A stretch of 64,000 bases of DNA from Mesorhizobium opportunistum WSM2075 (GTDB lineage: Bacteria; Pseudomonadota; Alphaproteobacteria; Rhizobiales; Rhizobiaceae). This document shows positions 6,332-54,267 of the stretch, piece after piece. Below the pieces are notes generated by a model. The model had not been told where the DNA came from. It saw only the letters and a list, made by a program, of their open reading frames with translations, and ran no database searches. Location of the stretch: positions 4,406,001 through 4,470,000 of the forward strand of contig NC_015675.1 of assembly GCF_000176035.2 (NCBI RefSeq). Reading direction: 5' to 3'. Position 1 is the stretch's first letter. Each line of letters opens with the position of its first letter. The position numbers and the translations under genes are program-made.

Positions 6332-6498
6332 GATTTGCGACGATGGACGCGTCGCGGCGCGTCCAAATTCGTTGCAAAGGTGGCGTTGCTTCCCATATTC
6401 CGGCCACGGGCTTGGAAATGCCGTGAAAGCATTGTATTGAGCCGCCTCCAATTCACCGGTCGTGTTCGCGGCCGGGCAAGGCCTTGCCAGGATAAACT

Positions 6499-6975
6499 AT
6501 GCAAACCGTACTGATCGTCATCCATCTCATGGTCGTGCTCGCCCTTGTCGGCGTGGTGCTGCTGCAGCGCTCCGAAGGCGGCGGCCTTGGCATTGGTGGC
6601 GGATCGGGCTTCATGACCGCGCGTGGCGCTGCCAACGCGCTGACCCGCGCGACTGCGATCCTGGCGGCTGCGTTCTTTGTCACATCGCTGACCTTGTCGA
6701 TCATTGCCCGCTACGGCGAGAAGCCGATCGATATCCTCGACCGCGTTCCCGCGACATCGGGTGAAGCCGGCAAGGGCGTGCTCAACCAATTGCCCGGCAC
6801 GACCACCCCGGCACCCGCCGGCAACGCCACGCCGACGCCGCCATCCGGCAACGATGCCGCGACGACGCCTCCGGCAAAGGCTCCGGCCACCGCGCCGGCC
6901 GCCGGCTCGACGCCGCCGGCAGGCAATGGCACCACCAACACCGCGCCGGCCGCCCCCCAGGTTCCGAACCAGTAG
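6499..6975 (+). CDS. secG: Preprotein translocase subunit SecG
   Basis: Small integral-membrane subunit of the SecYEG translocon. Residues 1-75 contain the two expected transmembrane helices (about 3-22 and 52-72) separated by the conserved cytosolic loop LLQRSEGGGLGIGGGSGFMTARGAAN. The remaining half, about residues 85-158, is a low-complexity Pro/Ala/Thr/Gly tail. Such tails are common in rhizobial SecG and make the protein twice the length of enterobacterial SecG. tpiA lies 167 bases upstream, the usual alphaproteobacterial neighbour. Confidence 0.93.
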   Translation: MQTVLIVIHLMVVLALVGVVLLQRSEGGGLGIGGGSGFMTARGAANALTRATAILAAAFFVTSLTLSIIARYGEKPIDILDRVPATSGEAGKGVLNQLPGTTTPAPAGNATPTPPSGNDAATTPPAKAPATAPAAGSTPPAGNGTTNTAPAAPQVPNQ

Positions 6976-7187
6976 CTTCCGCTCGCTCAAAACCGCGATC
7001 TGTGATCGTTTGAACACAGTCGCGGCAAATGCTGCGCAATCACGAAGATTCGACGGGTAGTGGTGCTGCCTCGCGCTTGAGGCATCCGCATTTATTCGAC
7101 TATAGATTGCACGCGGCATTTTCGGTGTCCTTGGGGGACGCCGGGCGACGCCGTGGGCAACCAGCATTGAACGATCGGATCTTCGCC

Positions 7188-8315: not shown

Positions 8316-8334
8316 CGTTTCCACCATCATGCCG

Positions 8335-8361
8335 AAAGGGCCGGCTCAGCCGGCCCTTTTG
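8335..8361 (+). terminator. Rho-independent terminator after the L,D-transpeptidase gene
   Basis: A perfect 11-bp stem (aaagggccggc at 8335-8345 and gccggcccttt at 8349-8359) with a three-base loop runs into a T-rich tract. It lies 20 bases past the stop codon. Confidence 0.9.
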
Positions 8362-8403
8362 TTTTGCCTTGCTCACGACCAAGCCTGTTCGGTCGTGATC
8401 CCC

Positions 8404-8472
8404 GGACAAACCGAAACCGTTTGTCTGGACAAACCGAAACCGTTTGTCCGGACAAACCGAAACCGTTTGTCC
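8404..8472. repeat. Three 23-bp tandem palindromic units upstream of pyrG
   Basis: Units at 8404-8426, 8427-8449 and 8450-8472 differ by one base (t for c at 8426). Each holds the inverted arms gacaaac and gtttgtc around a seven-base loop cgaaacc, so each unit can form its own hairpin. The array begins about 90 bases past the transpeptidase stop and ends about 117 bases before the pyrG start. Confidence 0.9.
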
Positions 8473-8515
8473 GAGAAAACCGGATTCCACTTTTCGGGAT
8501 CATGGTCCGAGCGCC
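8473..8515. repeat. Rhizobial intergenic palindrome-like element
   Basis: This stretch contains gagaaaaccggattccac and cttttcgggatcatgg, which resembles the short palindromic element scattered through Rhizobium and Mesorhizobium intergenic regions (aaaaccgg...ccac..ttttcggg..catg). It directly follows the tandem array. The match is from memory of the element's consensus, so the family assignment is tentative. Confidence 0.5.
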
Positions 8516-8576
8516 TTTTTGGGAAAAAGCCTTCGCGGCGGTTTTTTCTCTGGCGGAATCAATCCGGCCGCGTTAA

Positions 8577-10217
<1,641 letters not shown>

Positions 10218-28640: not shown

Positions 28641-29384
28641 CTAACCCGTTTTCCCCGCCGGATAGACACCCTCCAAAACATCATTGAAATGGCGGCTGAC
28701 GGCCTTGTTGCACTCGCACGCGAGCGAGCGCAGTCCTTCTGGATTGCGCACCGCAAGCCGAGATCGCCTGGTTTCGATGACGCCACGGTGCCTTAGCTCG
28801 TGAATGACACGGCTGAGATAGGAGCGGCCGACCCCGAGCATCGTTGCAAGCTGTTCCTGTGTCACCGTCAGGTTTTCGGCTCCCGTGCGTTCTGTCGCGG
28901 CCAACAGCCATCTTGCCGTTCGCTGCTCGATCGAATGCGCCGCGCTGCAGGCGACGGACTGGAATACCTGCGCCATCAGGCAATCGGCATAGCGGGCAAA
29001 CAGGTGGCGCAACGTCAAGGAACGCTCCTTGGCCTCTTCGAGATGGTTCAGGTCGATTCTGAAGAACGAGCCACCGAGTTGAACTTCGGCCCGTGCATAC
29101 GCCGGGAGCCTGCCCTGGCTGACGATGCCGCCGACCGCTCCTTCACGACCGATGAGCGCAGTCTCGATCGCTCGCCCGTCGCGCAGCACGACACGATAGG
29201 AGACCAGGGCCGATCCGCGAGGAAAGTAGGCATAACGGACTGCATCGCCTGGCTCGTGCAGCAAAGTCCCGGCGGGCGCCAACCATTGTTCGAGCCTCGG
29301 CTGCAGGATTTGCCAGTCGTCGGCTCTGAGAGCCCGAAGCAGGTTGTTCCCGATCGGGTCTGATCGTTCTCGCGGATTCTCCAT
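28641..29384 (-). CDS. Crp/Fnr family transcriptional regulator
   Basis: A 247-residue regulator. Residues about 20-145 form a cyclic-nucleotide-binding-like beta roll (LAPAGTLLHEPGDAVRYAYFPRGSALVSY). Residues about 165-230 form a Crp-type helix-turn-helix (RTARWLLAATERTG, then VTQEQLATMLGVGRSYLSRVIHELRHRG). It has no N-terminal Fnr cysteine cluster, so it is not an oxygen-sensing Fnr. It is divergent from the kaiB-kaiC-kinase operon with 257 bases between start codons, so it may control that operon. No symmetric Crp site is obvious to me in the spacer. Confidence 0.88.
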   Translation of the reverse strand: MENPRERSDPIGNNLLRALRADDWQILQPRLEQWLAPAGTLLHEPGDAVRYAYFPRGSALVSYRVVLRDGRAIETALIGREGAVGGIVSQGRLPAYARAEVQLGGSFFRIDLNHLEEAKERSLTLRHLFARYADCLMAQVFQSVACSAAHSIEQRTARWLLAATERTGAENLTVTQEQLATMLGVGRSYLSRVIHELRHRGVIETRRSRLAVRNPEGLRSLACECNKAVSRHFNDVLEGVYPAGKTG

Positions 29385-29641
29385 AGCACTCCTCTTTCCA
29401 AATGGCGGCGTCTACAACGATCCGCGCCGAGAAATGTTCACAAGTGCGCAGACGAGGCGGGCGCGGCTATCTACAAACCGCATAGGGGCGCTGATCCGGG
29501 CCTCACCGAGCGCGAGCCGCGGTGCATCGGCTTCCAGGCAGACCGACGGCTGCCGGGGAAGAAAAATGCTGGCGTCTGGATTCCGTGGCGTGGCGCCTCG
29601 TGCACGCCGAAAACTGCAACTTTGTGCAGCAAGGCGTGAGC

Positions 29642-29962
29642 ATGAGCGTCAGTGATCGGTCCGATCCGGGGGCCAACGGCTTGCTTCGACTCTATGTCGC
29701 CGGCGATGCGCCGGGTGCGCGTCGGGCGCTGGAAAACCGTCTGAGGATAATGGAGGAGTTGGCCGGCGGTATCGAAATCCAGATCGTAGACGTCCTTGCG
29801 CATCCTGAAGAGGCGGAAAGGGCCGGCATTCTGGCGACGCCGACGCTCTCGGATGAGTCAACCACCCCTCCACGCCGGCTGATTGGTGACATCAGCAACA
29901 TCGCTCAGGTTCTCGACTATTTCGGTTATCGCAAGAAGGACAGCGGCTATGACCACAGCTGA
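29642..29962 (+). CDS. kaiB: KaiB-like protein
   Basis: A 106-residue thioredoxin-fold KaiB family protein. The diagnostic segments are present: LLRLYVAGDAPGARRALEN near the start, IQIVDVLAHPEEAERAGILATPTLS in the middle (ILATPTLS is the family hallmark) and PPRRLIGDIS before the C-terminus. In cyanobacteria KaiB switches fold and binds the KaiC ring at the dephosphorylation stage. Its gene overlaps kaiC by 14 bases, so the two are co-translated. There is no kaiA. Outside cyanobacteria KaiBC pairs have been linked to stress fitness and hourglass-like timing. Confidence 0.9.
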   Translation: MSVSDRSDPGANGLLRLYVAGDAPGARRALENRLRIMEELAGGIEIQIVDVLAHPEEAERAGILATPTLSDESTTPPRRLIGDISNIAQVLDYFGYRKKDSGYDHS

Positions 29963-31436
29963 AGAGATCCTCGTCGATCCTGCGCTCGAACGCGTCAGGA
30001 CAGGTATCGAGGCTTTCGACGATCTTGTGATGGGCGGCCTTCCGCGCGGGCGCACCACCATCGTCGGTGGCACGCCTGGCAGCGGCAAAACAGTATTTGC
30101 CACACAGTTCCTCGCCCACGGCATCACAATGCGCGACGAACCCGGCGTCTTCGTCACGTTCGAGGAATCGCCGGCCGAGATCGAGGTCAACATGGCCAGC
30201 TTCGGCTGGGACATCCGCGGTTGGCGGGAGAACAACAAGCTGGTTTTCGTCGACGCCAGCCCGCGTGACCACGACCAGATGATCATCGGCAATTTCGATT
30301 TGTCGGGCCTGCTGACGCGTGTCCTGCACGCTGCGCGACACGCCGCGGCAAAGCGCATCGTGCTGGATTCCGTGACCCAGCTCTTCGACCATTTCGTCGC
30401 CGAGCAGACATCGGTGCGTCGGGAACTCCTGCGCATCGCAACAGCCCTCAAGCGGGAAGGCTTGACGGTGCTGATGACCGCCGAACGCAACAGCGAATAT
30501 GGCGATATCTCCCGCCACCGGATCGAGGAGTTCGTCGCCGACAACGTCGTGATCTTGCGCAACGCGCTGGACCGCGAGCGGCGCAGGCGCACGATCGAGG
30601 TTCTCAAGATGCGGGGCAGCCGCCACGTCGAGGGCGAGGTGCCGATCACGCTCGTGGTGAAGCAAGGCATAGTGGCGGTGCCATTGTCTTCATTGCGGCT
30701 CGAGCAGCAATCCAGCACCAAGCGGGTGACGAGCGGCAATCCCGAACTCGACAGGATGTGCGGCGGTGGGTTTTTCCGCGACAGCGTCACTCTCGTCAGC
30801 GGAGCGACGGGCACCGGCAAGACGCTGCTGGTGACAAACTTTCTGGCGGGCGGGGCAGCGGCCGGCGAACGTGCCTTGCTGGTCGGCTACGAGGAAAGCC
30901 GTGGCCAGCTGTTCCGCAACGCGCGCGGCTGGGGCGTCGATTTCGAGGCAATGGAGGCGGATGGCCGGCTGAAGATCGTGTGCATTTACCCTGAAGCGCA
31001 GAACTTGCCGGACCACCTGCTGATGGTCCGCGAACTCGTTGAGGAGTTCAAACCTGACCGGATCGCCATCGACAGCCTGTCGGCATTGGAACGGATCGCG
31101 TCAGAGACCGGTTTCCGGGAGTTCCTGATCAGTCTCACTTCCTTCATCAAGAAACACGAGATCGCCGGCCTTTGCACGGCCACCAACAAGTCGCTCGTCG
31201 GCGGCCAGAGCGCCAGCGAACAGCATATTTCAACCCTTACGGACTCGATCATCCTCTTGCGGTACATCCAGGAGGGAGATTTCATGCATCGCGGAATCAT
31301 GGTGCTGAAAATGCGCGGCAGCGAGCATGACAAGCAGATTCGACGCTTCGCGATCGACGGTGCCGGCATGCATCTCGGTCAGCCCTTCGACGGCGCCCCC
31401 GACGTGTTCGGCGATTCCGCCGCATCCCCGGCGTGA
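29949..31436 (+). CDS. kaiC: KaiC-like circadian clock ATPase/autokinase
   Basis: A 495-residue double-RecA-fold ATPase. CI has Walker A GGTPGSGKT (40-48) and the catalytic FEES (E72/E73). CII has Walker A SGATGTGKT (284-292) and YEES (E315/E316). The autophosphorylation pair of cyanobacterial KaiC is conserved as HIST (S428, T429) in EQHISTLTDSIILLRY. The arginine-rich KMRGS motif occurs in both halves (220-224 and 454-458). The protein should therefore be a complete hexameric kinase-phosphatase. It overlaps kaiB by 14 bases and its stop overlaps the region of the kinase ribosome site. Confidence 0.93.
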   Translation: MTTAEEILVDPALERVRTGIEAFDDLVMGGLPRGRTTIVGGTPGSGKTVFATQFLAHGITMRDEPGVFVTFEESPAEIEVNMASFGWDIRGWRENNKLVFVDASPRDHDQMIIGNFDLSGLLTRVLHAARHAAAKRIVLDSVTQLFDHFVAEQTSVRRELLRIATALKREGLTVLMTAERNSEYGDISRHRIEEFVADNVVILRNALDRERRRRTIEVLKMRGSRHVEGEVPITLVVKQGIVAVPLSSLRLEQQSSTKRVTSGNPELDRMCGGGFFRDSVTLVSGATGTGKTLLVTNFLAGGAAAGERALLVGYEESRGQLFRNARGWGVDFEAMEADGRLKIVCIYPEAQNLPDHLLMVRELVEEFKPDRIAIDSLSALERIASETGFREFLISLTSFIKKHEIAGLCTATNKSLVGGQSASEQHISTLTDSIILLRYIQEGDFMHRGIMVLKMRGSEHDKQIRRFAIDGAGMHLGQPFDGAPDVFGDSAASPA

Positions 31437-31447
31437 GGAGCGTCGAC

Positions 31448-32617
31448 ATGGCGCGCAGCGCAGCCGAAGTCTCAGACCGACACGGCGATGCAACTCTGAC
31501 GGGCATTAGTCAACTTGATTTTCGACGGCTGATCGAGAACACGGCCGACGGGGTTCTCGTCGTCAGTCTGTTGGGAACTGTGCTTTATGCAAATCCGGCG
31601 GCAGCCGCGATTTTCGGCTGTCCGGTCGCCGATCTCGTCCACATCCCCCTCGGCCGTCCCGTCATCTCCGGCGAAACGATGGAGATTACCGTCCACCGGC
31701 CCGATAGAGCACCAGCCGACGTGGAAATGCGGACGGTTGAGCTCAGTTGGGATGGCAAGCCGGCACTGCTTGCCAGTCTTCGCGACGTTTCCGCGCAACG
31801 CGCGCGGCAGGAGCATCGACGTCAGTCGCAAAAGCTCGAAGCGATCGGCCGGCTCGCTGCCGGCATCGTTCACGACATGAACAACCTGCTCGCGGTGTTC
31901 GAATCGGGGCTGCGACTGCTTCAGAAGCAGCTGCGCGAGGATCCTGCCAATCCGAACGCGTCGATGCTGATCGAAGAGTTGCTTAAGCGAACCCAGAACG
32001 GCGGTGCGCTGACGCAGCAATTGCTCGCGTTCTCTCGTGGACAGTCGCTGCGTCCGCAGACAATCGACCTGAATGGACGAATCGAAGCGATGACGATGCT
32101 GCTGGAGCGGACGCTGGGGAATGGGATCAGTATCAACCTTGAACTGGATCCAGCACTCGGTCCTGTCGTCGTCGACGCCAATCAGCTGGACGTCGCCATC
32201 CTAAACCTGGCTGTGAATGCCAAGGACGCGATGGCCGGCACAGGCACGCTGGCGATCGAGACCAGCGATACCCCCGGCGAGATTGAAGAGGTGCCCGCTT
32301 TGGCTGCCTCTTTCGTTCGGGTCACGGTCAGCGATACGGGGTGCGGCATGAGCAAGGAGATCATGACCCAGGTGTTCGAGCCGTTCTTTACTACAAAGGC
32401 CGATGGACGGGGGACCGGCCTTGGGCTTAGCCAGGTTTACGGTTTCATCAAGCAGTCCGGGGGTCATATTCGGATCGAGAGTGAGGTTGGCGAGGGAACA
32501 AGCATTCATCTCTTTCTTCCCCGCGCGCCAAACACGGGAAACGACCCGCTGCGAAGGCAGGACGAGACCGGTCTGAACACTGCGCCTGCAATGGCACACC
32601 GCATCCGTCGCGGCTGA
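31448..32617 (+). CDS. PAS-domain sensor histidine kinase in the kai operon
   Basis: A 389-residue soluble kinase without transmembrane helices. It has a PAS domain (about 22-118, ADGVLVVSLLGTVLYANPAAAAIFG), a dimerisation/phosphoacceptor region with His142 in LAAGIVHDMNNLLAV, and a HATPase domain with N-box LNLAVNAKDAM, G1 DTGCGM, F-box FEPFFTTK and G2 GTGLGLS. There is no fused receiver. ATG 31448 follows gtgaggag, 11 bases after the kaiC stop, so it is the third gene of the kai operon. By position it is a candidate output or input kinase for the KaiC oscillator; no cognate regulator is adjacent. Confidence 0.88.
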   Translation: MARSAAEVSDRHGDATLTGISQLDFRRLIENTADGVLVVSLLGTVLYANPAAAAIFGCPVADLVHIPLGRPVISGETMEITVHRPDRAPADVEMRTVELSWDGKPALLASLRDVSAQRARQEHRRQSQKLEAIGRLAAGIVHDMNNLLAVFESGLRLLQKQLREDPANPNASMLIEELLKRTQNGGALTQQLLAFSRGQSLRPQTIDLNGRIEAMTMLLERTLGNGISINLELDPALGPVVVDANQLDVAILNLAVNAKDAMAGTGTLAIETSDTPGEIEEVPALAASFVRVTVSDTGCGMSKEIMTQVFEPFFTTKADGRGTGLGLSQVYGFIKQSGGHIRIESEVGEGTSIHLFLPRAPNTGNDPLRRQDETGLNTAPAMAHRIRRG

Positions 32618-32647
32618 AAAAAAGTGGGCCCGGAAATCCGGGCCCAC
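32614..32647 (-). terminator. Rho-independent terminator for the heat-shock operon
   Basis: gtgggcccgg (32624-32633), loop aaat, ccgggcccac (32638-32647). Read on the minus strand the stem is followed by seven T residues. It lies just past the SPW gene stop and may also block transcripts from the kai operon side. Confidence 0.9.
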
Positions 32648-32659
32648 GGGGAGGAACCG

Positions 32660-33025
32660 TCAGGCGGTTGAAAGCGGATGATTGCCGAATAACCAGAGGC
32701 TTCCGGCAGCCAAGACCGCCACGATAATACCCACGATCACATGCGCCCACATGGCGGCCGCCAACGCCGAAAAACCGAGGGCCCAAGGCGAGACCAGTGT
32801 CCACAGCCCAACCGCCAGATTTGCCCATTCCTCATAGGCATGGAAGGCGACCAGCGCACCCACGGCTATCAGGGCAATCACCGCACCGGCGATCCAGGCG
32901 TTCCAAGCTGCATAGGTTTCAGCCGCAAAGCCGAGATACCAGGGCGACAGTACTAGTGCTATGCCGGCGATCAGATTGACCACATCGATCACCGGACGAT
33001 TTTCAGTTTTCAGCCATTTCTCCAT
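32660..33025 (-). CDS. SPW repeat membrane protein
   Basis: A 121-residue inner-membrane protein with two SPW repeats. Each pair of helices contains the signature (ALVLSPWYLGF near residue 28 and TLVSPWALGF near residue 80), giving four transmembrane segments. The function of the family is unknown. The ATG has an aaaggagga ribosome site. It is the last gene of a minus-strand set with the omega-like, NDUFS4-like and Hsp20 genes and is followed by a strong terminator. Confidence 0.9.
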   Translation of the reverse strand: MEKWLKTENRPVIDVVNLIAGIALVLSPWYLGFAAETYAAWNAWIAGAVIALIAVGALVAFHAYEEWANLAVGLWTLVSPWALGFSALAAAMWAHVIVGIIVAVLAAGSLWLFGNHPLSTA

Positions 33026-33050
33026 TGTTCATCCTCCTTTCCTTATATGC

Positions 33051-33371
33051 TCAGTGCACCGCCCCTTGAGCGAGGGCGGGGTCGGCGGCCAGGGATTGTC
33101 CTTCGCCGCCGCTAAGCTTTCTTCGTCGGCCGGGCCGAACGCGGTCATCGCGCGGAACCGAGCCGGCCAGAACGAAGGGCTTGACCTCGTCGGGCTGGAA
33201 GCGGTTGCCGGCGATCTCGCGCAGGGCGAGTTCGACGGGCACCGTCACGCTGCCGGTCAGGCGAGGCTCGGCACCACGGCTGAGCGCACGGGCCCGGCCC
33301 GCCGCCGCAACGGCCAGCGCGAAACGGTTCGGCACGGTATTTTCACAATCGAGCACGATCATCGGATCCAT
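33051..33371 (-). CDS. RNA polymerase omega subunit (RpoZ) paralogue
   Basis: A 106-residue protein whose first 65 residues match the RNA polymerase omega fold: VLDCENTVPNRFALAVAAAGRARALSRGAEP, then VELALREIAGNRF, where housekeeping omega has [21 protein letters not shown] and VVALREIA. The C-terminal third is basic and differs from omega. The housekeeping rpoZ is expected elsewhere in a rhizobial genome, so this would be a second copy inside a stress operon. The start has a gaggtgg ribosome site, nine bases past the upstream gene. Confidence 0.75.
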   Translation of the reverse strand: MDPMIVLDCENTVPNRFALAVAAAGRARALSRGAEPRLTGSVTVPVELALREIAGNRFQPDEVKPFVLAGSVPRDDRVRPGRRRKLSGGEGQSLAADPALAQGAVH

Positions 33372-33380
33372 GATGCCACC

Positions 33381-34130
33381 TCACGCTGCCTTCTGCTTCT
33401 GTTCAGGAACGGAAACGGCCAGTTTCGCTGTCGTAAGCTGCTCCAGTGCGAGCAGTGCCGATTCCACTTCGTCGAGCCGTGTCGGACGCGCGTTTTCAGG
33501 CATCCCTTCGGCCGTCGCGAGATCCACAAGATACTCGTTCCACGCCCAGTTGCGCAGGATGGCGCGTTTCTCGTCGACTGTCAGAAGAGGATCGACAACG
33601 AGGTCCATCGGCGATGCATAAAGCGCCTCGGGATCGGCCAATGCCGGTCCATAATGCGAGGCATGTGAAACGGCACCGTAGCTGCTCGTGAGCAACGCCA
33701 GTTGCAGGCGGTTCCAGACAAGGTCCCTGCCGGCCTGCAGCCGCTTTTCGGCACTGGAAGATTCCGCGGATTTTTCCGCCGCGGGATTTACCTGAACCGA
33801 ATAAGCGAGGCCCTGACGTTCGGCATAGTCGATGGCCGCCTGAACCGTCGGAAAATCGAGCTCCACCTGAGTCAGCGTGTCACCACTTCCGGTGTAGCCC
33901 ATCAGCGGTTCGATGACCGGCGCCATACGGCGCTCGAAGATCAGCCGCCAGCCTTTCGGCCGCGCACGGCCCGAGGTCGTGACTGAACGGGAAGGCTTGT
34001 AGATCCGCGCGACCGCATCACGCGGGAACTCGGATCTGCCGAATGACAGCGCGCGCTTGCGATTGTCGTTTGCCGGTGCGATATTTTCTGCGGCTTGTGT
34101 GACTTCTCTTTCTTCTTGCTTCTGCATCAT
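33381..34130 (-). CDS. NDUFS4-like domain fused to a stress-linked C-terminal domain
   Basis: A 249-residue protein. Residues about 40-115 match the ETC complex I subunit conserved region of NDUFS4/AQDQ (SRSVTTSGRARPKGWRLIFE, then EPLMGYTGSGDTLTQVELDFPTVQAAIDYAERQGLAYSVQ). Residues about 165-235 are a separate module with PMDLVVDPLLTVDEKRAILRNWAW that recurs in the gene at 35507-35866 (PQDVLIDETLDVQEKRAILSSWAS). Normal NDUFS4 homologues are about 100 residues and lack this tail. Start after gggagga. It probably does not act in complex I; its role is unknown. Confidence 0.8.
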   Translation of the reverse strand: MMQKQEEREVTQAAENIAPANDNRKRALSFGRSEFPRDAVARIYKPSRSVTTSGRARPKGWRLIFERRMAPVIEPLMGYTGSGDTLTQVELDFPTVQAAIDYAERQGLAYSVQVNPAAEKSAESSSAEKRLQAGRDLVWNRLQLALLTSSYGAVSHASHYGPALADPEALYASPMDLVVDPLLTVDEKRAILRNWAWNEYLVDLATAEGMPENARPTRLDEVESALLALEQLTTAKLAVSVPEQKQKAA

Positions 34131-34198
34131 TCCATCCTCCCATTTTGCGAAGGATGCGTCGGAGGCGGCTGCCTGCCGCCCCCGACTTGCTCCATGCG

Positions 34199-34693
34199 TC
34201 AGTGGGTGATCGGGATACGCTTCACTTTCGACTGCGCATTAGGGTTCTTCGGCAGCGTCAGGCTCAGGACGCCATTGGCAAAGGTCGCCTTGACCTTGTC
34301 GTCCTCGACCTCGTAGCCGAGGGGTATGCGCCGCTCGAAGCGGCCGTAGAAGCGCTCGGAGTAATCCCTCTCGCCGGTCTCCGACCGCTTTTCGCCACGC
34401 AGGGTCAGCACGTCCTCGTCGAGCAGGACTTCGATGTCCTTCTCTTCCATACCGGGGACCTCGGCGGTGACGCGAAGCTCATTGTCCGACTCCGAAATCT
34501 CCACCTTCGGCCAGCCATTCTCGAAAGACGAGAGCTGCCCCATGAAAGGCAAACGCGTCTCGAAGCTCCTCAACACATCGTCAAAGAGCCTGTTTACCTC
34601 GCGGTGAAGCGAAACAAAGGGATCGCCACCGCTATAGATGCTGGGAGCCTGGTTGTTGTTGCGGCCCCACGGGATAAGGTCACGCATGTTCAT
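34199..34693 (-). CDS. Small heat-shock protein, Hsp20 family
   Basis: A 164-residue ATP-independent holdase. The alpha-crystallin domain covers about 55-150 (WPKVEISESDNELRVTAEVPGMEEKDIEVLLDEDVLTLRGEK, then PLGYEVEDDKVKATFANGVLSLTLPK), preceded by FDDVLRSFETR and ending with an IPI-type tail (KRIPITH). The ATG at 34693 has ggagg nine bases upstream; an in-frame ATG two codons earlier is too close to it. It is the third gene of the heat-shock operon. Confidence 0.93.
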   Translation of the reverse strand: MNMRDLIPWGRNNNQAPSIYSGGDPFVSLHREVNRLFDDVLRSFETRLPFMGQLSSFENGWPKVEISESDNELRVTAEVPGMEEKDIEVLLDEDVLTLRGEKRSETGERDYSERFYGRFERRIPLGYEVEDDKVKATFANGVLSLTLPKNPNAQSKVKRIPITH

Positions 34694-34768
34694 CTTCATT
34701 CACCTCCATGTTCAACCGCGCGGCACCGGACGACCGCCGGTGCCTGTCGCTTCTGGTTCACTCTGAGT

Positions 34769-35238
34769 TCAGGCGGCGTTCTTCTCGCCTTCGATCTGCC
34801 GTGGCTTCGCCTGGGCCGTGCTGCCGGCGATGGCGATCCGGCGCGGTTTCATCTCTTCGGGAAGCTCGCGCTTGAGATCGATGTTCAGCAGCCCGTTTTC
34901 CAGGCTGGCGCCGACGACCTTCACATGGTCTGCCAGTTCGAACTGCCGCTCGAAGGCGTGCCCGGGAACGCCGCGATAAAGATACTGGCCGTTGTCGTCA
35001 CCCGATTGCGAGCCGCTCACAAGCAGCAAGTTCGGCTGATGAGTGATGGTCAATTGCTCCTGCGAAAAACCGGCGACCGCCATTGTGATGCGATAGTCGT
35101 CCTCACCGGTCTTGGCGATGTTGTAGGGCGGCCAATTGTCTATCGCGGTGACACGGCTCGCATTTTCGAGCAGATCGAAATGCGATCGAAGCCGATGCTG
35201 GACCGGAACAAGGGGGTAAAATCGAGGTTTGTCTTCAT
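34769..35238 (-). pseudogene. Second Hsp20 family chaperone, apparent one-base frameshift
   Basis: The region encodes an IbpA-like Hsp20. From ATG 35238, eight bases after an aaaggagg ribosome site, the reading is MKTNLDFTPLFRSSIGFDR, the classic N-terminus of this family. The rest (HFDLLENASRVTAIDNWPPYNI, then the alpha-crystallin domain DYRITMAVAGFSQEQLTI to the C-terminus) is in the next phase. One base is missing between 35182 and 35185. A continuous frame exists from 35263 but replaces the conserved N-terminus with unrelated residues and reads through the ribosome site. Either a real frameshift or a sequence error. A ROSE element and RpoH-type promoter lie upstream. Confidence 0.8.
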
Positions 35239-35335
35239 AGCCATATCCTCCTTTGAGCAACATGGATACAAAAGGACGCCAAGAGAGCCTTGACGCCTCC
35301 TGACTTAGCGCCGGCCCCATCAGGCGGCCGGCGAT
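35239..35335 (-). promoter_or_regulatory. ROSE-type RNA thermometer in the hsp20 leader
   Basis: The leader just before ATG 35238 reads ttgctc-aaa-ggagga-tatggct-atg, matching the ROSE core in which the UUGCUC strand masks the GGAGGA ribosome site at low temperature. The flanks TATCC and GGATA extend the stem. Upstream are two further hairpins (cgccggc...gccggcg and a GC-rich arm around 35284-35310), as in multi-hairpin rhizobial ROSE elements. Confidence 0.85.
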
Positions 35336-35340
35336 TGTCG

Positions 35341-35368
35341 ATTTAGAATGGCGGGTTGCGCGTTCAAG
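35341..35368 (-). promoter_or_regulatory. RpoH (sigma-32)-type promoter
   Basis: On the minus strand CTTGAA (35368-35363), 16 bases, CTAAAT (35346-35341). The -35 is the consensus for alphaproteobacterial RpoH and the -10 is a partial match. The predicted transcript would start at about 35335 and carry the ROSE element. Confidence 0.65.
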
Positions 35369-35441
35369 AGGGCGGTTAAGAAAATTTTCAGGCAAGATCC
35401 GGACGTATAGGGGAATGCGGCGGTAAGAACGCACTGGGTGG

Positions 35442-35468
35442 TTCTGCTGGCGAAATTCGCCAGCAGAA
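35442..35468. repeat. Perfect 13-bp inverted repeat with one-base centre
   Basis: ttctgctggcgaa, one a, then ttcgccagcagaa. It lies between the gene ending at 35507 and the RpoH-type promoter, and probably insulates the two by terminating the upstream minus-strand transcript, although the T-tract is poor. It is not a CIRCE element. Confidence 0.75.
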
Positions 35469-35506
35469 AGGCCCTCCTCGGATTCCGGAAGGGCTGGCGC
35501 TTGCGG

Positions 35507-35866
35507 TTAAAGTCGATCGACCAGTGCTGTGAGACCGGCGGCCGCGATGTCGATCTCGTGACTGCGACCGGCAGCGGGAAGCTTCTCGCGTTGATCCAAT
35601 TGGCGCAACGCGTCCATGATGGCATCGAAGCTGACCGGTTCGGTCACCCCGGGCGGCATGCGCAGCGCCGGCATCGATTCCACTGCACAGGCATCCGATG
35701 CCCATGACGACAGGATTGCACGCTTCTCCTGGACGTCCAGCGTCTCGTCAATCAGCACGTCCTGAGGTCGCTCGAAATGCCGTGCCGGATGCAGCAACCG
35801 GTCAAGAAAAACATCAGGGGCTTCGGGCCCGACTGGGACAAAACTCGTCGAAATGGCTCTTTCCAT
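35507..35866 (-). CDS. Hypothetical stress-operon protein sharing the EKRAIL domain
   Basis: A 119-residue soluble protein of unknown function. Its N-terminal two thirds (FLDRLLHPARHFERPQDVLIDETLDVQEKRAILSSWASDACAVESMP) match the C-terminal domain of the NDUFS4-like fusion at 33381-34130. The remainder, with SFDAIMDALRQLDQRE, continues the similarity (RLDEVESALLALE). ATG 35866 follows cggaggga. It lies upstream of the hsp20 pair on the same strand, separated by a strong hairpin and the RpoH-type promoter. Confidence 0.75.
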   Translation of the reverse strand: MERAISTSFVPVGPEAPDVFLDRLLHPARHFERPQDVLIDETLDVQEKRAILSSWASDACAVESMPALRMPPGVTEPVSFDAIMDALRQLDQREKLPAAGRSHEIDIAAAGLTALVDRL

Positions 35867-36112
35867 CGGTGGTCCCTCCGCTTTCACTAGGCTCCTCTGT
35901 TGACATCATCTTGGTGGCTCTCGTGATTTCCACCGACTGAAATTTTGGAGAGTTTCGACCAAATTTCAATGGCGCCAACAAGGCCGCATCCTCACGGTTC
36001 AGCCCAGCATCAACATTTTTTCGAACCGGTGAAACAATCCGCGTGAATGTCAGTTCTGGCGTCTGAACAAGGCGCGCAGCAGCGCCAGGGCAGTCGGGCA
36101 GGAGAGTCAATC

Positions 36113-37507
36113 ATGTCTTACATTTCCAGGAAGCGGCTGTGCATTGGCCTCCTCGCAGGAGTTTTGACGCTCTCGGCTGGCGGCTTTGCTCCGGTTTCAG
36201 CACAAGAAATCCCAAACGACTTCAGTGCGATCGTGCGTCAGAAACTGCCGGCGGTGGTCGCCATTACGACCAGGCAGATCATCCAGGACCAAACGACGCT
36301 CGACGATTTTCTGAATCCTTTCGACGGCCGCGGGCCTATCCAGCCGCAGGTGCGGGAAGCGCTTGGCTCCGGCTTCGTCATCAGTCCCGAGGGTTATATC
36401 GTCACCAACAATCATGTCGTGGCCGACTCCACCGAAATCCACGTCGTCTTCTCCGACAAGGAGACTTCGCCCGCGCGACTGGTGGGCCGCGATCCAGCAA
36501 CCGACATCGCGGTGCTGAAGGTCGATCCACGGCCCAACATGACCATCGCGGTCTGGGGTGATTCCGACGCAATGCAGCCGGGTGCCTGGACGATCGCGAT
36601 CGGCAGTCCCTTCGGGCTCGGGGGAACCGTTACCGTCGGTGTTCTTTCGGCCCGCTCGCGCGACATCCAGGCCGGCCCTTATGACGATTTCCTCCAGACA
36701 GACGCCTCGATCAACAGAGGCAATTCCGGCGGTCCCCTATTTAACGCACGCGGCGAAGTGATCGGCGTCAACACGGCCATCGTCTCGCCGTCGGGCGGCA
36801 GCATAGGCATCGGCTTCGCCGTGCCGTCGCGAACGGCACGGAGCATCGCCGATCAACTGATCCGCACCGGCCGGATCGAGCGCGGTTTCATCGGTGTGCG
36901 TCTCCAGGAGGTGACCCCGTCGCTTGCCGAGGCGCTTGGAATGTCTGGCACCAAGGGAGCGCTGGTCGCCTCCGTCGAGCCCGGCAGTCCAGCGGAGAAG
37001 GCCGGCTTACGATCAGGCGACGTAATCACTCGGTTCAACGGCAAGGACATCCAGGGTGTCCATGACTTGACGCTGGCTGCGGCGAACGAAAAGCCGGGGT
37101 CGAGAGCGACGCTGACAAGGAACCGCGGCGGCTCACAGCAGGAGGTGGAATTGACCGTGGGCCAGCGCAAGGACGAGGAGATGCGGACCGGTGCTGTTCC
37201 GAATCCAGAAGCGGCGGATCAAGGTCTCGGGCTGTCGCTCAGCCCAATTCCAGATGAAGCGCGCCAGCAGCTCGGTCTCCAGCCGGGTACCACCGGCGTG
37301 TTTGTCCAGGAGGTCGCGCCGAACAGTCTTGCGGCTGAAAGCGGTCTCAAGCCCGGCGATGTGATCGTCTCGGCGAACAACCAGAATGTTACCCAGCCTT
37401 CGGATGTCCGACAGGAGTGGGCGAAATCCCGGCAGCAGAACAAGCCGATCCTGTTCCGCATCGAACGGCAGGGACAATCGCTCTTCGTGGCCGTCTCAAA
37501 ATCTTGA
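36113..37507 (+). CDS. Periplasmic serine protease, HtrA/DegP-Do family
   Basis: A 464-residue protease-chaperone. A signal peptide (about 1-30, cleavage PVSA-QE) is followed by a trypsin-like domain with the triad His101 (TNNHVVADS), Asp131 (DPATDIAVLKV) and Ser205 (RGNSGGPLF). Two PDZ domains follow, at about 275-365 (GFIGVRLQEVTPSLAEALG) and 375-460 (LGLSLSPIPDEARQQLG). It degrades or refolds misfolded envelope proteins. ATG 36113 has a caggaga ribosome site. It is divergent from the heat-shock genes, a location that fits stress induction. Confidence 0.93.
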   Translation: MSYISRKRLCIGLLAGVLTLSAGGFAPVSAQEIPNDFSAIVRQKLPAVVAITTRQIIQDQTTLDDFLNPFDGRGPIQPQVREALGSGFVISPEGYIVTNNHVVADSTEIHVVFSDKETSPARLVGRDPATDIAVLKVDPRPNMTIAVWGDSDAMQPGAWTIAIGSPFGLGGTVTVGVLSARSRDIQAGPYDDFLQTDASINRGNSGGPLFNARGEVIGVNTAIVSPSGGSIGIGFAVPSRTARSIADQLIRTGRIERGFIGVRLQEVTPSLAEALGMSGTKGALVASVEPGSPAEKAGLRSGDVITRFNGKDIQGVHDLTLAAANEKPGSRATLTRNRGGSQQEVELTVGQRKDEEMRTGAVPNPEAADQGLGLSLSPIPDEARQQLGLQPGTTGVFVQEVAPNSLAAESGLKPGDVIVSANNQNVTQPSDVRQEWAKSRQQNKPILFRIERQGQSLFVAVSKS

Positions 37508-38634: not shown

Positions 38635-38826
38635 GCCGCCAGGATCCCGCCGGCCTCAGTCGACTTTCAACAGCGGAACTTCGCCGAAAATCCGCCAAGG
38701 ATTCGAAGGACGCTCTCCGCAACCGCGCATCGCGGGATTGATGCGAAACACCATTGATAGGGTATGGCCGGGCGCAGCCATAATGGAATAAGCGCCAGCA
38801 TCGGCCGTCTGAACAGGAGGGTTGAG

Positions 38827-40995
38827 ATGAGCATCGAAGTCGAAGAACGTAAGCTTGATCCAGCCGTTGCTCTTCCCGCACTCGATGAATCGGCGCCGCG
38901 CGAGCCGCATAGACAATTTGCGCTGAAGCACGAGGACTGTTTCGTCGTTGCGGACAGTTATGGCGACATACGCGGCACTGGCGACGGGCTTTTCCGCGAC
39001 GATACGCGTGTGCTGTCGCGCTTCCGGCTGTTCGTCGGCGACCACATGCCCTCGCTGCTCGGCGCCTCGCTGTCGCAGGACAACATCCTATTCACAGCCA
39101 ATCTCACAAATCTGTCCACAATCGGATCCGACGGTAGTGAGGCACTGCCGGGCGTCGTGCACATCGAGCGGACCAGGTTCATCTGGCAAGACCGCATGTT
39201 CGAGCGAATCGCGTTCTCGAACTACTCCCGACGCGAGGTCCTGCTGCCGGTTCGTTTCGACTTTGACGCCGATTTTCGTGACATGTTCGAGGTGCGCGGC
39301 ACCACTCGAAGCCGCCGTGGTCGCGCCCATGACGCGCTGGTCGGTGAGACGAGCGTCACGTTTCGGTACGAAGGCCTCGACAATGTTTCGCGCCAATCTG
39401 TTATCGCGTTTTCGATTAGGCCTGATCAGGTGCACCCCAATCACGCCGAGTTCCTCATTCGGGTGGAGAGGCGCGCCAGAAGAGCATTGTACCTGGAGGT
39501 CGGTCAAAACGAAGAAGTGCCATCCAGCGATCGCTTCCGCGCGGCGGCGGCGCGAGCTCGCTTTGCCATGCGCTCAAAGCGTCGGCAGGGCGCCACTATC
39601 TTCAGCTCGGGCCGCGTGTTCAACGACTGGCTCACGCGAACACGGGCCGACATTGCCCTGCTGACCACCGATCTGGAGACCGGGCCATATCCGTATGCCG
39701 GCATTCCCTGGTTTTCGACCGCTTTTGGCCGCGACGGCGTCATTTCCGCCTTGCAGATGCTGTGGCTGAACCCCGCGCTCGCTCGCGGAGTCCTGGCGTT
39801 CCTTGCCCGCTATCAGTCGACAGAGACTTCGATATTTGACGACGCCGAACCCGGCAAGATCATGCACGAGACGCGCAAGGGGGAAATGGCTGTCCTGCGC
39901 GAACTCCCGTTCGGCCGCTACTACGGTGGGGTCGACACCACTCCGCTCTATGTCTACCTGGGTTGTTCCTACGCTGATCGCACCGGAGATCAGGAATTCG
40001 TGGACCGCATGTGGGATTCGCTATGTGCGGCAATCGGGTGGATGGAGGAGGTGGGAGCTCGCAACGGGGACGGCTTCGTGACCTACAGCAGGGCGGCGGA
40101 TACCGGGCTTTTCAACCAGGGCTGGAAGGACAGCGCCGATGCGATCTTCCATGCCGATGGTACTATACCGAAGGGGCCAATCGCACTGGTGGAGGTGCAA
40201 GGCTATGTCTTCGCAGCCTATCAAGGCATGGCTGCATTGGCAGCCAAACGCGGCGACGCGGCCAAGGCAGCGCACTGGAGCGCCATGGCGGAAAAAATCC
40301 GCAGCGCAGTGGAGAGCCGATTCTGGATGCCGGAGCGAAACTTCTACGCCTTAGCAATCGATGGGGAAGGCAAGCAATGCGCGGTGCGCGCCTCCAATGC
40401 GGCGCACCTGCTTTATGTTGGGCTGCCATCGGCGGAACGGGCGCAATCAATTGCCGAGCAGTTGCTGTCGGCGCATCTCCACAGCGGTTGGGGCGTTCGC
40501 ACCTTGGCCGACGACGAGCTCCCGTTCAATCCGATGTCCTATCATAACGGCTCGATCTGGCCGCATGACACGGCAATCTGTGCCGCAGGACTGGCCCGCT
40601 ATCAGCAGCGCACCAGCGTCGTCAAGCTTTTGAGCAGCATGTTCGAGGCGGCGGTCCAGTTCAATATGCGGCTTCCGGAGCTGTTCTGCGGCTTTACGCG
40701 CGCCATCGGCGACGCGCCGATTGCCTATCCTGTCGCCTGTCTGCCGCAGGCGTGGTCTGCCGGTTCGGCCTTCATGATGTTGCAGGCCTGTCTTGGGATC
40801 CGCATCGATGGTTGGAAGCGCGAGATCAATGTCGAACGCCCACGGTTGCCGATCGGCATCGACAACATCGTCATCCGGCATTTAGCCGTTGGGGAGGCGA
40901 AGGTCGATCTCAATTTCCAGCGCGTCGGCGACCGGGTTGTCTGCTATCTCGGTGAACGGCACGAGGGCCTGGTGCCGCTGGCCGTTCGCTCTTAG
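38827..40995 (+). CDS. Glycogen-debranching-type amylo-alpha-1,6-glucosidase (copy A)
   Basis: A 722-residue protein with the two-part layout of bacterial and archaeal debranching glucosidases: an N-terminal beta domain (about 35-235; FALKHEDCFVVADSYGDIRGTGDGLFRDDTRVLSRFRL) and an (alpha/alpha)6 catalytic domain (about 280-690) with PWFSTAFGRDGVISALQMLW, EPGKIMHETRKGEMA, GWKDSADAIFHADG and YHNGSIWPHDTAI. It is predicted to be cytosolic (no signal peptide). ATG 38827 follows aacaggaggg. A paralogue lies convergent at 41846-44002. Confidence 0.9.
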   Translation: MSIEVEERKLDPAVALPALDESAPREPHRQFALKHEDCFVVADSYGDIRGTGDGLFRDDTRVLSRFRLFVGDHMPSLLGASLSQDNILFTANLTNLSTIGSDGSEALPGVVHIERTRFIWQDRMFERIAFSNYSRREVLLPVRFDFDADFRDMFEVRGTTRSRRGRAHDALVGETSVTFRYEGLDNVSRQSVIAFSIRPDQVHPNHAEFLIRVERRARRALYLEVGQNEEVPSSDRFRAAAARARFAMRSKRRQGATIFSSGRVFNDWLTRTRADIALLTTDLETGPYPYAGIPWFSTAFGRDGVISALQMLWLNPALARGVLAFLARYQSTETSIFDDAEPGKIMHETRKGEMAVLRELPFGRYYGGVDTTPLYVYLGCSYADRTGDQEFVDRMWDSLCAAIGWMEEVGARNGDGFVTYSRAADTGLFNQGWKDSADAIFHADGTIPKGPIALVEVQGYVFAAYQGMAALAAKRGDAAKAAHWSAMAEKIRSAVESRFWMPERNFYALAIDGEGKQCAVRASNAAHLLYVGLPSAERAQSIAEQLLSAHLHSGWGVRTLADDELPFNPMSYHNGSIWPHDTAICAAGLARYQQRTSVVKLLSSMFEAAVQFNMRLPELFCGFTRAIGDAPIAYPVACLPQAWSAGSAFMMLQACLGIRIDGWKREINVERPRLPIGIDNIVIRHLAVGEAKVDLNFQRVGDRVVCYLGERHEGLVPLAVRS

Positions 40996-41845: not shown

Positions 41846-44002
41846 CTAGCGCAAGGAGGGCCCGGTAGCGCAACTGCGCGCCTCCACCAAGGACGGATCG
41901 CCGCTTCGAACTTCCCAACAGCTCTCGGCGCCGGAGCGCCAGAAATGGAGTTCGAGCCGCTCTTTCCCGAGCCGCACGTCTTTTAAGGTGAATTCAGGCA
42001 TCCAGTCCGGCAGCGTGGGATCGATGTACAGCTTGCCATTTGGAGCGTCGGGCTGGAAGCCGATGATCGCCTGCAAAAGTGAAAAGCACGACCCCGCCGC
42101 CCAGGCCTGCGGAACGTTCGCTCCCTTATACTGCACCGGGAACGTTGCGGGCGTTCGCGGCAAGCCGGCGAACAGCTCTGGCATTCGATGTTGCATGAAG
42201 TAGATTGCGGCGCTGCTTACGTCGCGAGAGAGGCGACAAGCTTCCGCCCAGAAGCCATAGCGTCGGAATCCGAGCGCTATCAGTCCGTTGTCATGCGGCC
42301 ACACGGAGCCGCATTGATAGGAATGTGGATTGTAGGCAGGGTGATCGGCTGAAAGCGTCCGGATTCCCCAACCGCTCCACATATCCTGCATCATCAGCCG
42401 CTGCACCACCCTAGCGGCTCGTTCGGGTGGAACTATTCCCGACCAAAGACAGTGACCAGGGTTGGAGGCGACGCTCAGCACCGGTTTCTTGTCGCCATCG
42501 AGCGCGAACGCGTAGAAGCCGGACGCCTCATCCCAGAAGACCCGGTTGAACCGGTCGAACAAGCTCCTGGCTTTGACACGAAGCTGCTCGGCACGTGCGC
42601 CGTCGCCTCTGGCATCGAAGATTTCAGCCATGCGCTGCCAAGCGTCGTAGACATAGCCTTGCAATTCGCAAAGCGCCTTGGGTCCCTTTACCAGCGTACC
42701 ATCTGTGTAAACCAGGGCATCGCCGGCGTCTTTCCAACTCTGATTTTCGTATCCCGAAGCCGAACGGGTTTCATATTCCTGGAAGCCATCACCGTCGCGG
42801 TCCCCATAGCGGTCAATCCAATCCAGGCATTTTTCGGCCGTGGCGATGTGTCGGTCCAGCAGGCTGGAGTCACCGGTGGATCGCCAAGTGTTGTGAAGCA
42901 CGATGAGGTAGAGAGGCGTTGCATCGGCTGTGCCGTAATACGGTGTATGGGGAATCAGATTGAAATGGGCGAGTTCGCCGGTGCGAAGCTCATGCATTAT
43001 CTTCCCTGGTTCCGCATCGCGGTAGTCGTCGCGCTCGGTTGCTTGAAGGCGTCCCAAAACGTCCAGGGCACCGCGCGAAAAATCCGGATAGACCAGCGCA
43101 TTCTGAAGCGAGACTATCAGGCTGTCACGACCAAACAGTCCGATGAACCATGGCAGTCCGGCGGCCGGGACATATTCTAGCTCGTCCGTCCCTTCGATCG
43201 GCAGCCGCAGCGCCGCCATGTCTTCAACCGCCTGATGATAGAAGCGGTAGAATTCGTCATTGGAACAGCTGAAGTTCAGGGCACTGCCTCGCCATTGTGC
43301 GAGGCGTTTCGCCGCTTTAGAGCTAAGGGCTTGGTCGATGCAGACGCGTGGTGCCCGATAGACCGCATCACCGTTGCCGAAGTCATAGAGAAGGCAAGCA
43401 TGCCATACCTCGCCCGGCTCGAGCTTAATGTCGAAACTGATCCGGCCGTTGGCATAGACAGGCTTCTTGGACGTGTGGCGGATTTTTACCGTGACCTCTC
43501 GCTTAAAATCCTGATTGACGTAGGACGTGCGAAGGCGTGCCAGTTTGCACGACCATTCCGTGGTGATCCGTCCGCGGCGGATGATCGGGCCGCCCTTGAC
43601 TTCAAAGAGATCGGCAAAGTCGCTGCGCATAGCAACTTCCAAATTGAACCGCACAGCCTTTTGCCCGTGGTTTACAAGGTCAAGATCCTCATGTAGCCCC
43701 TCATCCAACGCTCGGCCGATCCCCAGTCCCAGGCTGCCCGCGAGCACATGGCCTGTTTCAGTCGCGAACGCCTGGTTCACAAGATAGACCTTGGCTGCGA
43801 AGTAGGCGATATTTCCGGAATTGAGGAGGTCCCATGGTTGCCCATTGGCAAAGATCTGCCAGCTGGATATCAGGCGGGTGTCCGATGCATACAACCCGTT
43901 TTGCGTAGGCCAGCGGATCTGGCCGTCCGGTTCGGTCACTAGGAAGCTGCGCCCCTGGTTGATTGCTAAACGCGGCGGTCCAATGGTAATCTCTAGCGTC
44001 AT
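41846..44002 (-). CDS. Glycogen-debranching-type amylo-alpha-1,6-glucosidase (copy B)
   Basis: A 718-residue paralogue of copy A with the same two domains. The N-terminal domain begins TIGPPRLAINQGRSFLVTEPDGQIRWPTQNGLYASDTRLISSW. The catalytic domain has LPWFIGLFGRDSLIVSLQNAL, EPGKIMHELRTGELAHFN, QSWKDAGDALVYTDG and HSYQCGSVWPHDNGLIALG. ATG 44002 matches the family start; an in-frame extension to a TTG at 44062 is possible. The two copies are convergent and differ enough (different N-terminal halves) to suggest different substrates. Confidence 0.9.
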   Translation of the reverse strand: MTLEITIGPPRLAINQGRSFLVTEPDGQIRWPTQNGLYASDTRLISSWQIFANGQPWDLLNSGNIAYFAAKVYLVNQAFATETGHVLAGSLGLGIGRALDEGLHEDLDLVNHGQKAVRFNLEVAMRSDFADLFEVKGGPIIRRGRITTEWSCKLARLRTSYVNQDFKREVTVKIRHTSKKPVYANGRISFDIKLEPGEVWHACLLYDFGNGDAVYRAPRVCIDQALSSKAAKRLAQWRGSALNFSCSNDEFYRFYHQAVEDMAALRLPIEGTDELEYVPAAGLPWFIGLFGRDSLIVSLQNALVYPDFSRGALDVLGRLQATERDDYRDAEPGKIMHELRTGELAHFNLIPHTPYYGTADATPLYLIVLHNTWRSTGDSSLLDRHIATAEKCLDWIDRYGDRDGDGFQEYETRSASGYENQSWKDAGDALVYTDGTLVKGPKALCELQGYVYDAWQRMAEIFDARGDGARAEQLRVKARSLFDRFNRVFWDEASGFYAFALDGDKKPVLSVASNPGHCLWSGIVPPERAARVVQRLMMQDMWSGWGIRTLSADHPAYNPHSYQCGSVWPHDNGLIALGFRRYGFWAEACRLSRDVSSAAIYFMQHRMPELFAGLPRTPATFPVQYKGANVPQAWAAGSCFSLLQAIIGFQPDAPNGKLYIDPTLPDWMPEFTLKDVRLGKERLELHFWRSGAESCWEVRSGDPSLVEARSCATGPSLR

Positions 44003-44062
44003 TTCAACGACTGATCCAATTGCAGCGTCCGCGGAGGGATCTCGTCCGTAAGAGCACACCAA

Positions 44063-53658: not shown

Positions 53659-54267
53659 CTATTGCAGTTTGGGTCGGGGCAGCGCGCGTTTAATATCAAA
53701 GGTCTCTGGCAAGCTCGGTTCGTTGCCTTTCCTGACGGAAGCCGTCGTCATGGCATCGGCCGGGAGAAGGATTACCATCCTGGCCTTGGGCTCGGGCCAA
53801 ATCGGCCCCCCAAACAGAAATAATACGGCTGCCAGCACGCACACGAGCAGGGCGGTGGCCAAGACATTCGCAATGATCTCTCCAAATTGCATCCTGCTCT
53901 CCGCAAACATAATGCCCGCTGCCTCACCAGGAGGCGGCGGGCATCGGGCATCTTGTGAACTGACGGTGAAGGGACGTTTGTCCGTCAGTTTCGTGTCAAT
54001 GAAGCGGAACGCCTTATGTTTCTGGAATAGGACCTTTGCGTCCGCCGATGGGACTTTGGTCTCACATTGGAGGGAGCGCAATTTGACCTGGGGGCGACCT
54101 GTGATGCTGCCTAGGCTGTTGCTCCACCCTGCTCGATCAAAGGCCGCGATGGCGTCATCGCCTGTATAAACCGCTATGACCTCGCACCCTGCCTCAACGA
54201 GGGATTGCTCGACGTCCAACAGGATGAGGCTCTCATCCTCCACAACTAGGACTGCACCTGAGGTCAT
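53659..54267 (-). pseudogene. Truncated response-regulator receiver joined to unrelated sequence
   Basis: The first 45 residues are the start of a CheY-like receiver (AVLVVEDESLILLDVEQSLVEAGCEVIAVYTGDDAIAAFDR) with the acidic pair E-D in place, but the frame leaves the fold before the phospho-acceptor strand and continues into unrelated sequence. The last part (from about 53892) contains a single hydrophobic helix (IIANVLATALLVCVLAAVLFLFGG) and could be an independent small membrane protein. The receiver is almost certainly non-functional. Confidence 0.6.

Follow-up and report, generated by a model that had tools for sequence, protein, structure and literature searches.

A kaiB-kaiC-histidine kinase cassette with a divergent Crp-type regulator in Mesorhizobium opportunistum and other Alphaproteobacteria

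Gene content and recurrence of the cassette

In Mesorhizobium opportunistum WSM2075, whose genome of 6.88 Mb forms a single contig (NC_015675.1), genes for KaiB, KaiC, and a histidine kinase (HK) lie in tandem beside a divergently transcribed gene for a Crp-type transcription regulator, hereafter crp (Table 1). We analyzed this locus within a stretch of 64,000 nucleotides (positions 4,406,001 to 4,470,000), which is referred to as the window. The three-gene operon proposed in an initial annotation of this DNA was recovered, with plus-strand overlaps of 14 nt between kaiB and kaiC and 4 nt between kaiC and the HK gene. The genome encoded one KaiB and one two-domain KaiC, together with three weaker PF06745 matches at other loci. 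The absence of kaiA, also proposed initially, held for the whole genome: no match to KaiA (PF07688) was found, and in a control set of 14 genomes only S. elongatus was positive. For the Crp-type regulator, Pfam gave no match to a cyclic nucleotide (cNMP)-binding domain.

Table 1. Features of the kaiBC-HK locus, given as window positions
Feature	Position	Strand	Remarks
Crp-type transcription regulator (crp)	28641..29384	-	divergent from kaiB; Pfam HTH_Crp_2 match
Sigma-EcfG-type promoter match GAAC-N16-CGTT	29416..29439	-	points at crp
Dyad TGTTCACAAGTGCGCAGAC, clade form TGTTCACTAGTGCGCAGAC	29435..29453	+	candidate Crp operator; 17/17 loci with Crp
Candidate -10 box TACAAA of the kaiBC-HK promoter	29472..29477	+	29 nt from dyad center
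kaiB	29642..29962	+	106 aa; Pfam PF07689
kaiC	29949..31436	+	495 aa; two P-loop domains, S/T phosphosites, tail without the GI[IL]xG A-loop motif
PAS-HisKA-HATPase histidine kinase (HK)	31433..32617	+	394 aa; no receiver domain, no KaiB-like domain
Hairpin with T-run	32624..32647	-	just past HK, at the convergent operon end; terminator-like for a minus-strand gene; pattern match only
Neighboring block	32660..37507		SPW protein, NDUFS4-domain protein, two Hsp20, 126-aa open reading frame, DegP-like protease (Pfam); common to two other Mesorhizobium copies

A single-protein search of contigs, which is not a census, yielded 75 loci. The close set of 19 loci, hereafter the clade, comprised 14 of these together with L087 (genome G109), L112 (genome G211), the plasmid loci L142 and L143, and the window. 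By tblastn, the four-gene cassette crp <- -> kaiB-kaiC-HK was found with HK and KaiC at all 19 loci, KaiB at 18, and Crp at 17, the loci without Crp being L017 (5.7 kb covered upstream) and L112 (1.2 kb covered). Two split or interrupted kaiC copies are counted among the 19. In L061 (Mesorhizobium ventifaucium, 4957-8528), kaiB has been lost and kaiC lies in two frames, with crp, the operator, and the kinase gene remaining; in L142 (Rhizobium sp. 11515TR plasmid p11515TR-B, 6001-10058), ~1.46 kb of other sequence interrupts kaiC and the kinase frame is shifted. Because the layout recurs across loci, chance is excluded as its source. The kinase gene stood directly downstream at every locus of the clade, in agreement with its proposed role as a stable partner of KaiBC, and the divergent regulator proved to be a real part of the unit. 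Many distant loci likewise had a kinase gene downstream of kaiBC. In L013, the kinase gene was directly followed by another member of this Crp-type family (8784-9527, +).

Across the nine loci from outside Mesorhizobium (L010-L018), the gene families that recurred in the flanks were those of the cassette, Crp, KaiB, KaiC, and HK, apart from LysR and MFS, which linked just L017 and the far left of the window. Some open reading frames (ORFs) in the flanking-family and locus comparisons were called by a rule based on GC content at third codon positions (GC3) rather than by a gene finder. Distance matrices for 15 loci were correlated between KaiC and HK (r = 0.95), KaiC and Crp (0.91), and KaiC and KaiB (0.88), with 0 of 2000 permutations in each case. 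A KaiC tree was built by a quick method from 62 chosen rows out of all KaiC loci fetched, with support from the Shimodaira-Hasegawa-like approximate likelihood ratio test (SH-aLRT) only; it carried long-branch warnings and included T. elongatus as a fragment. The tree grouped 17 clade rows with a support of 100 inside the cyanobacterial-type KaiCs and separated the clade from the R. sphaeroides type (99), and rows from Sphingomonadaceae, Caulobacteraceae, Rhodospirillaceae, Chelatococcaceae, and Mesorhizobium were intermixed within it. These comparisons show that the four genes have remained linked and have diverged in parallel across several alphaproteobacterial orders in unrelated surroundings.

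Properties of the encoded proteins

The description of the window KaiC as a full two-domain protein was borne out. It matched PF06745 in two stretches and NCBIfam TIGR02655 with 569.5 bits (cut-off 546), and both Walker A motifs (GGTPGSGKT and SGATGTGKT) and both Glu pairs were intact. The S431/T432 position, which reads HIST, was also intact, and Ser occupied the T426 position; the ST pair and this Ser were conserved in all 16 aligned members of the clade.

Clade KaiCs differed from others in the C-terminal tail, which extended 27-36 residues past the MRGS-HDK motif and contained GI[IL]xG in none of 17 sequences. The motif was also absent from the tails of L142 and L143, and hence from all 19 clade KaiCs. 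Outside the clade, it was found in 40 of 42 scorable tails, which were 40-58 residues long. A further 44 outside sequences were not scorable by the tail pattern; 17 cyanobacterial-type tails among them, inspected by eye, comprised 12 with GI[IL]xG, three with a GVL form, and two with neither. In an ungapped alignment extended by hand, the positions that we take to be E487 and R488 of S. elongatus KaiC were Pro and Asp in the window KaiC.

When the A-loop of S. elongatus KaiC carries point mutations, the protein becomes hyperphosphorylated in the absence of KaiA, and its phosphorylation is lowered by KaiB (PMC8538168). KaiC2 and KaiC3 proteins have kinase activity independent of KaiA (PMC5520375). 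In R. sphaeroides KaiC, the A-loop is exposed and a coiled coil is added, the removal of which leaves kinase activity similar (PMC10076222). From the loss of the A-loop and tail in the clade, together with the behavior of the A-loop mutants, we predict that the clade KaiC is most likely a constitutive kinase through deletion of the brake; such a tail loss predicts autokinase activity that needs neither KaiA nor the coiled coil of Rhodobacter.

KaiB matched Pfam PF07689 with 58.1 bits (cut-off 27). Its AlphaFold2 (AF2) model, with a mean predicted local distance difference test (pLDDT) score of 82, had the order beta-alpha-beta-alpha-beta-beta-alpha, which is the fold-switched topology, and its best PDB matches were KaiC complexes of fold-switched KaiB (on CI) and of R. 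sphaeroides KaiB, along with Legionella KaiB. The model is thus consistent with KaiC binding, but does not prove which fold is dominant.

For the HK, initially described as a soluble PAS kinase, the PAS and HATPase_c domains scored above the Pfam cut-offs and HisKA slightly below (25.1 against 26.9), and no membrane-spanning stretch was found in the protein (highest mean hydropathy over 19 residues, 1.74), in accordance with that description. The H-box His was kept in all 15 aligned kinases. Receivers were fused to the kinase as two stretches in L017 and L143 and one in L016. Because these three loci branch outside the 13-row core of the KaiC tree that contains the window, a receiver lost within the core would be the simpler history. 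The free receivers located close to the cassette in L014, L015, and L018 were mutually different, and none had a match in the window at E 1e-3. Beside the window HK, we found no cognate receiver; a receiver-like start at 53659-54267 (-) breaks off into unrelated sequence with no Pfam match, and is likely a broken response regulator gene. A single-domain receiver serves as a hub in the Caulobacter general stress response (PMC5964349), and any link from the window HK to such a hub would be speculation.

The crp-kaiB control region and genomic surroundings

At every Crp-bearing locus, the dyad TGTTCACTAGTGCGCAGAC or a near form of it lay between crp and kaiB, and it was absent from the two loci that lack Crp, L017 and L112. 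It was the only such site in the whole genome when up to three mismatches were allowed. At 29 nt past the dyad center, TA was found in 16, TAC in 13, and TACAA[AG] in 11 of the 17 loci. Class-II activator sites of the Crp type are centered near -41.5, so that the spacing from the dyad to the candidate -10 box is as expected.

An exact GAAC-N16-CGTT was directed toward crp in 12 of the 17 loci (shuffled mean 0.24, maximum 3 in 500 shuffles) and toward kaiB in none of them. The consensus for sigma-EcfG is GAAC-N16,17-C/GGTT (PMC4814048). AACG occurred at the same exact spacing in 14 of the 17 loci, and the three without it also lacked GTTC (Fisher 0.015, a value that ignores the relatedness of the loci). 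On the strength of this match, crp, and hence the cassette, seems to be under general stress control. The stress connection drawn in the initial annotation therefore stands in part: the conserved EcfG-type match before crp bears on the input, that is, on when the cassette is made, and not on the output. The stricter form GGAAC-N16,17-CGTT occurred five times in the whole window against 1.27 expected, a number reached in 3 of 100 shuffles; because of this excess, the region may hold several general-stress promoters. The strict form was not found at the heat-shock genes.

The accompanying argument that the operon lies in a stress island proved weak. Hsp20 genes adjoined the cassette at only four of the 19 loci (the window, L007, L008, and L061), and the Hsp20 block is not a constant part of it. 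A Crp regulon over the heat-shock genes was ruled out, the dyad being single in the window and genome at up to three mismatches and not located at those genes.

The region at 28.6-37.5 kb of the window (~9 kb) was shared with Mesorhizobium sp. CA14 (genome G128, locus L008) and with genome G131 at 87-88% nucleotide identity, with nothing else nearby shared; with G109, only crp to HK was shared (74%). On the flanks of the block in CA14 stand genes for a tyrosine integrase, a serine resolvase, FtsH, and a MobA/MobL relaxase together with a tRNA-Arg gene; FtsH aside, these lie around the cassette within about 25 kb. The flanks fit the mobilizable element IMEMsp.CA2, for which heat-shock and KaiBC genes have been published (PMC9973854). 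No borders of an element could be located in the genome of the window, where the nearest MobA/MobL relaxase was ~134 kb from the operon end. A MobA/MobL relaxase gene (G000:C1:4576513-4577106) and a phage-type integrase gene (4581394-4581894) lie far to the right of the window, and ~4.2 kb there share 83% identity with the relaxase region next to the CA14 cassette. We considered a single element of ~150 kb, running from about the 22-kb point of the window to the relaxase and integrase, and dropped it: no tRNA gene was found in the window or 120 kb beyond, the repeats found were only 12-13 bp (chance level), and only the 9-kb block was shared with G128 and G131. Megablast of this block against plasmids gave Hsp20-sized matches only (best coverage 11%).

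Two further observations concern the neighboring genes. Two related glycogen-debranching-type enzymes (GDE_N_bis; 38764-40995, +, and 41846-44062, -) are encoded close together beside the heat-shock genes. The C-terminal part of the NDUFS4-domain protein (33381-34130, -) resembles by eye the 126-aa ORF (35507-35887, -), which has no Pfam match.

Interpretation and comparison with known systems

We interpret the locus as a self-contained, horizontally traveling KaiBC-HK cassette with its own regulator, and hold this, with modest confidence, to be the probable reading. General stress would act through sigma-EcfG to transcribe crp, and Crp would bind the single intergenic dyad and activate kaiBC-HK as a class-II activator; because the dyad overlaps the promoter of crp, Crp may also limit its own synthesis. 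In cyanobacterial KaiC, the A-loop and tail restrain the protein and are bound by KaiA; because both are lost here, KaiC would be expected to autophosphorylate immediately without KaiA. KaiB would bind KaiC once it is phosphorylated and bring about its slow dephosphorylation. The PAS kinase would either read the state of KaiC or feed into it, and would pass phosphate to a receiver encoded elsewhere, which basal relatives carry in fused form. The net result would be a KaiA-free phosphorylation timer or a sensor of the ATP/ADP state, made under stress. The role of an hourglass timer is extrapolated from R. sphaeroides and R. palustris.

A narrower proposal, which we regard as unlikely, is a portable interval timer started by stress, in which stress induces crp, Crp induces kaiBC-HK, and a kinase-on KaiC is slowly reset by KaiB. 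If this were true, the kinase would signal for a fixed span after the onset of stress instead of for a particular time of day, and the clade would represent a third way of dispensing with KaiA, in which the brake is deleted rather than a coiled coil added.

Several observations weigh against the cassette being such a stress-controlled timer or sensor. The HK has no SasA-like N-terminal KaiB-like domain, Pfam giving PAS, HisKA, and HATPase only. KaiB scored 57.7 and 56.7 bits, under the NCBIfam cut-offs for circadian KaiB equivalogs (110 and 145.3), and its model was built on 22 sequences by a method that may favor one of two folds. A scan for the plain sigma-70 consensus before kaiB found nothing. 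The EcfG match fails in five of the 17 loci, and at crp the stricter form GGAAC is not matched, its first G being absent; moreover, the window contains 13 copies of GAAC-N16,17-CGTT where 4.1 would be expected, so that a single match carries little weight. The 17 loci are also related, six besides the window belonging to its genus. A close kaiC was present in just seven of 146 genomes of the same genus, an eighth (G126) matching at 32%. A class-wide sample contained two genomes with a close KaiC among 385 (the window's genome and G211), and 72,556 plasmid records gave 268 matches, of which two exceeded 60% identity. With so few bearers in these three samples and the taxonomically mixed KaiC tree, the cassette is sporadic and moves between lineages. 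Two of the 19 copies, L061 and L142, are decaying; this decay and the rarity within the genus mean that the cassette is dispensable.

Among the alternatives, the locus could encode an ordinary KaiBC hourglass, a daily timer set by ATP/ADP with the kinase as input or output, for which stress control and tail loss would be incidental. This is possible but doubtful. The parts are the same, an operon of kaiB, kaiC, and a kinase gene, and R. sphaeroides KaiBC works without KaiA as an ATP/ADP-driven hourglass (PMC10076222). However, the window KaiC belongs to a different lineage by identity (35%) and by the tree, the gene order is B-C-HK rather than C-B-HK with a HisKA rather than an HWE kinase, the C-terminal coiled-coil extension is missing, and the presence in seven of 146 same-genus genomes is sporadic. 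We also know of no phototrophic Mesorhizobium, which counts against a daily timer.

To a similarly limited degree, it is conceivable that the system regulates heat or UV stress without any timing role, with KaiC as a phosphorylation-state switch. The kaiC clusters of Methylobacterium extorquens control UV and temperature resistance, including temperature-dependent UV resistance (PMC8069551), and the EcfG-type promoter and the heat-shock neighbors at four of 19 loci point the same way. Such a switch is compatible with the stress-controlled cassette favored here and differs in denying a timer; the clade nevertheless keeps the S/T phosphosite, KaiB, and the slow-ATPase CI motifs, for which a plain switch has no obvious need. 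Finally, a mobile-element passenger of little host function, kept through linkage to heat-resistance genes, is very unlikely: two decayed copies, a copy adjoining a relaxase, an integrase, and a tRNA-Arg gene, and the sporadic distribution suit it, but four genes and a regulatory dyad are conserved at 75-86% KaiC identity, mostly without heat-shock genes.

KaiA-free KaiBC systems are likely forerunners of the cyanobacterial clock, and the few that have been studied are mostly from phototrophs. The present cassette is compact and mobile and occurs in heterotrophic soil bacteria. With a candidate input defined by a stress sigma factor and one operator, a role of KaiBC outside day-night life becomes testable, and a KaiC that lacks the A-loop offers a direct test of whether this loop is a mere brake released by KaiA.

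The kaiBC-kinase triplet itself is not new, having been described in Rhodopseudomonas, Bradyrhizobium, Rhodobacter, and others (PMC4794148, PMC3899966, PMC5520375, PMC3164672); the synteny proposed in the initial annotation is thus real and already published (PMC4794148, PMC3899966, PMC3164672). In the open-licence literature, we found no description of the Crp regulator, dyad, or EcfG promoter of the kaiBC-kinase unit, and the Crp and EcfG-type promoter wiring, the single operator, and the tail loss look new. The survey in the Ramlibacter paper (PMC3164672) recorded a kinase or GGDEF/EAL gene directly downstream of almost all non-cyanobacterial kaiC-kaiB clusters; that survey is general and, unlike the present analysis, is not concerned with the regulator or tail of this clade.

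Like the window, Rhodopseudomonas palustris has a KaiA-free three-gene unit with a PAS kinase, for which a single promoter was suggested (PMC4794148). Its order is C-B-HK and its phosphosites are TSS, whereas the window has B-C-HK and S-S-T; its KaiC has a longer C-terminal region, and the accessible text of that report mentions no divergent Crp. The Rhodobacter sphaeroides hourglass (PMC10076222; pB locus, L144) also combines KaiBC without KaiA with an adjoining kinase gene, but its KaiC, 35% identical to that of the window, bears a coiled-coil extension of ~50 residues in a C-B-HWE kinase arrangement, and neither trait was found in the window. The "circadian clock operon" of Bradyrhizobium ORS278 (BRADO1478-1481; PMC3899966) likewise clusters kaiC, kaiB, and a PAS kinase gene, in the order C-B-HK and with a separate receiver gene, unlike the window. 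A precedent in the genus is Mesorhizobium IMEMsp.CA2, whose combination of heat-shock and KaiBC genes on a mobilizable element is the arrangement seen in CA14; the single sentence given to it in PMC9973854 does not describe the kinase, regulator, or promoter, and because the main text does not name CA14, the identity is inferred. The kaiC1 and kaiC2 clusters of M. extorquens (PMC8069551) resemble our interpretation in tying an alphaproteobacterial KaiC to stress resistance, with layouts (kaiC1-kaiB2-kaiB1-kaiR1 and kaiC2-kaiR2) unlike that of the window.

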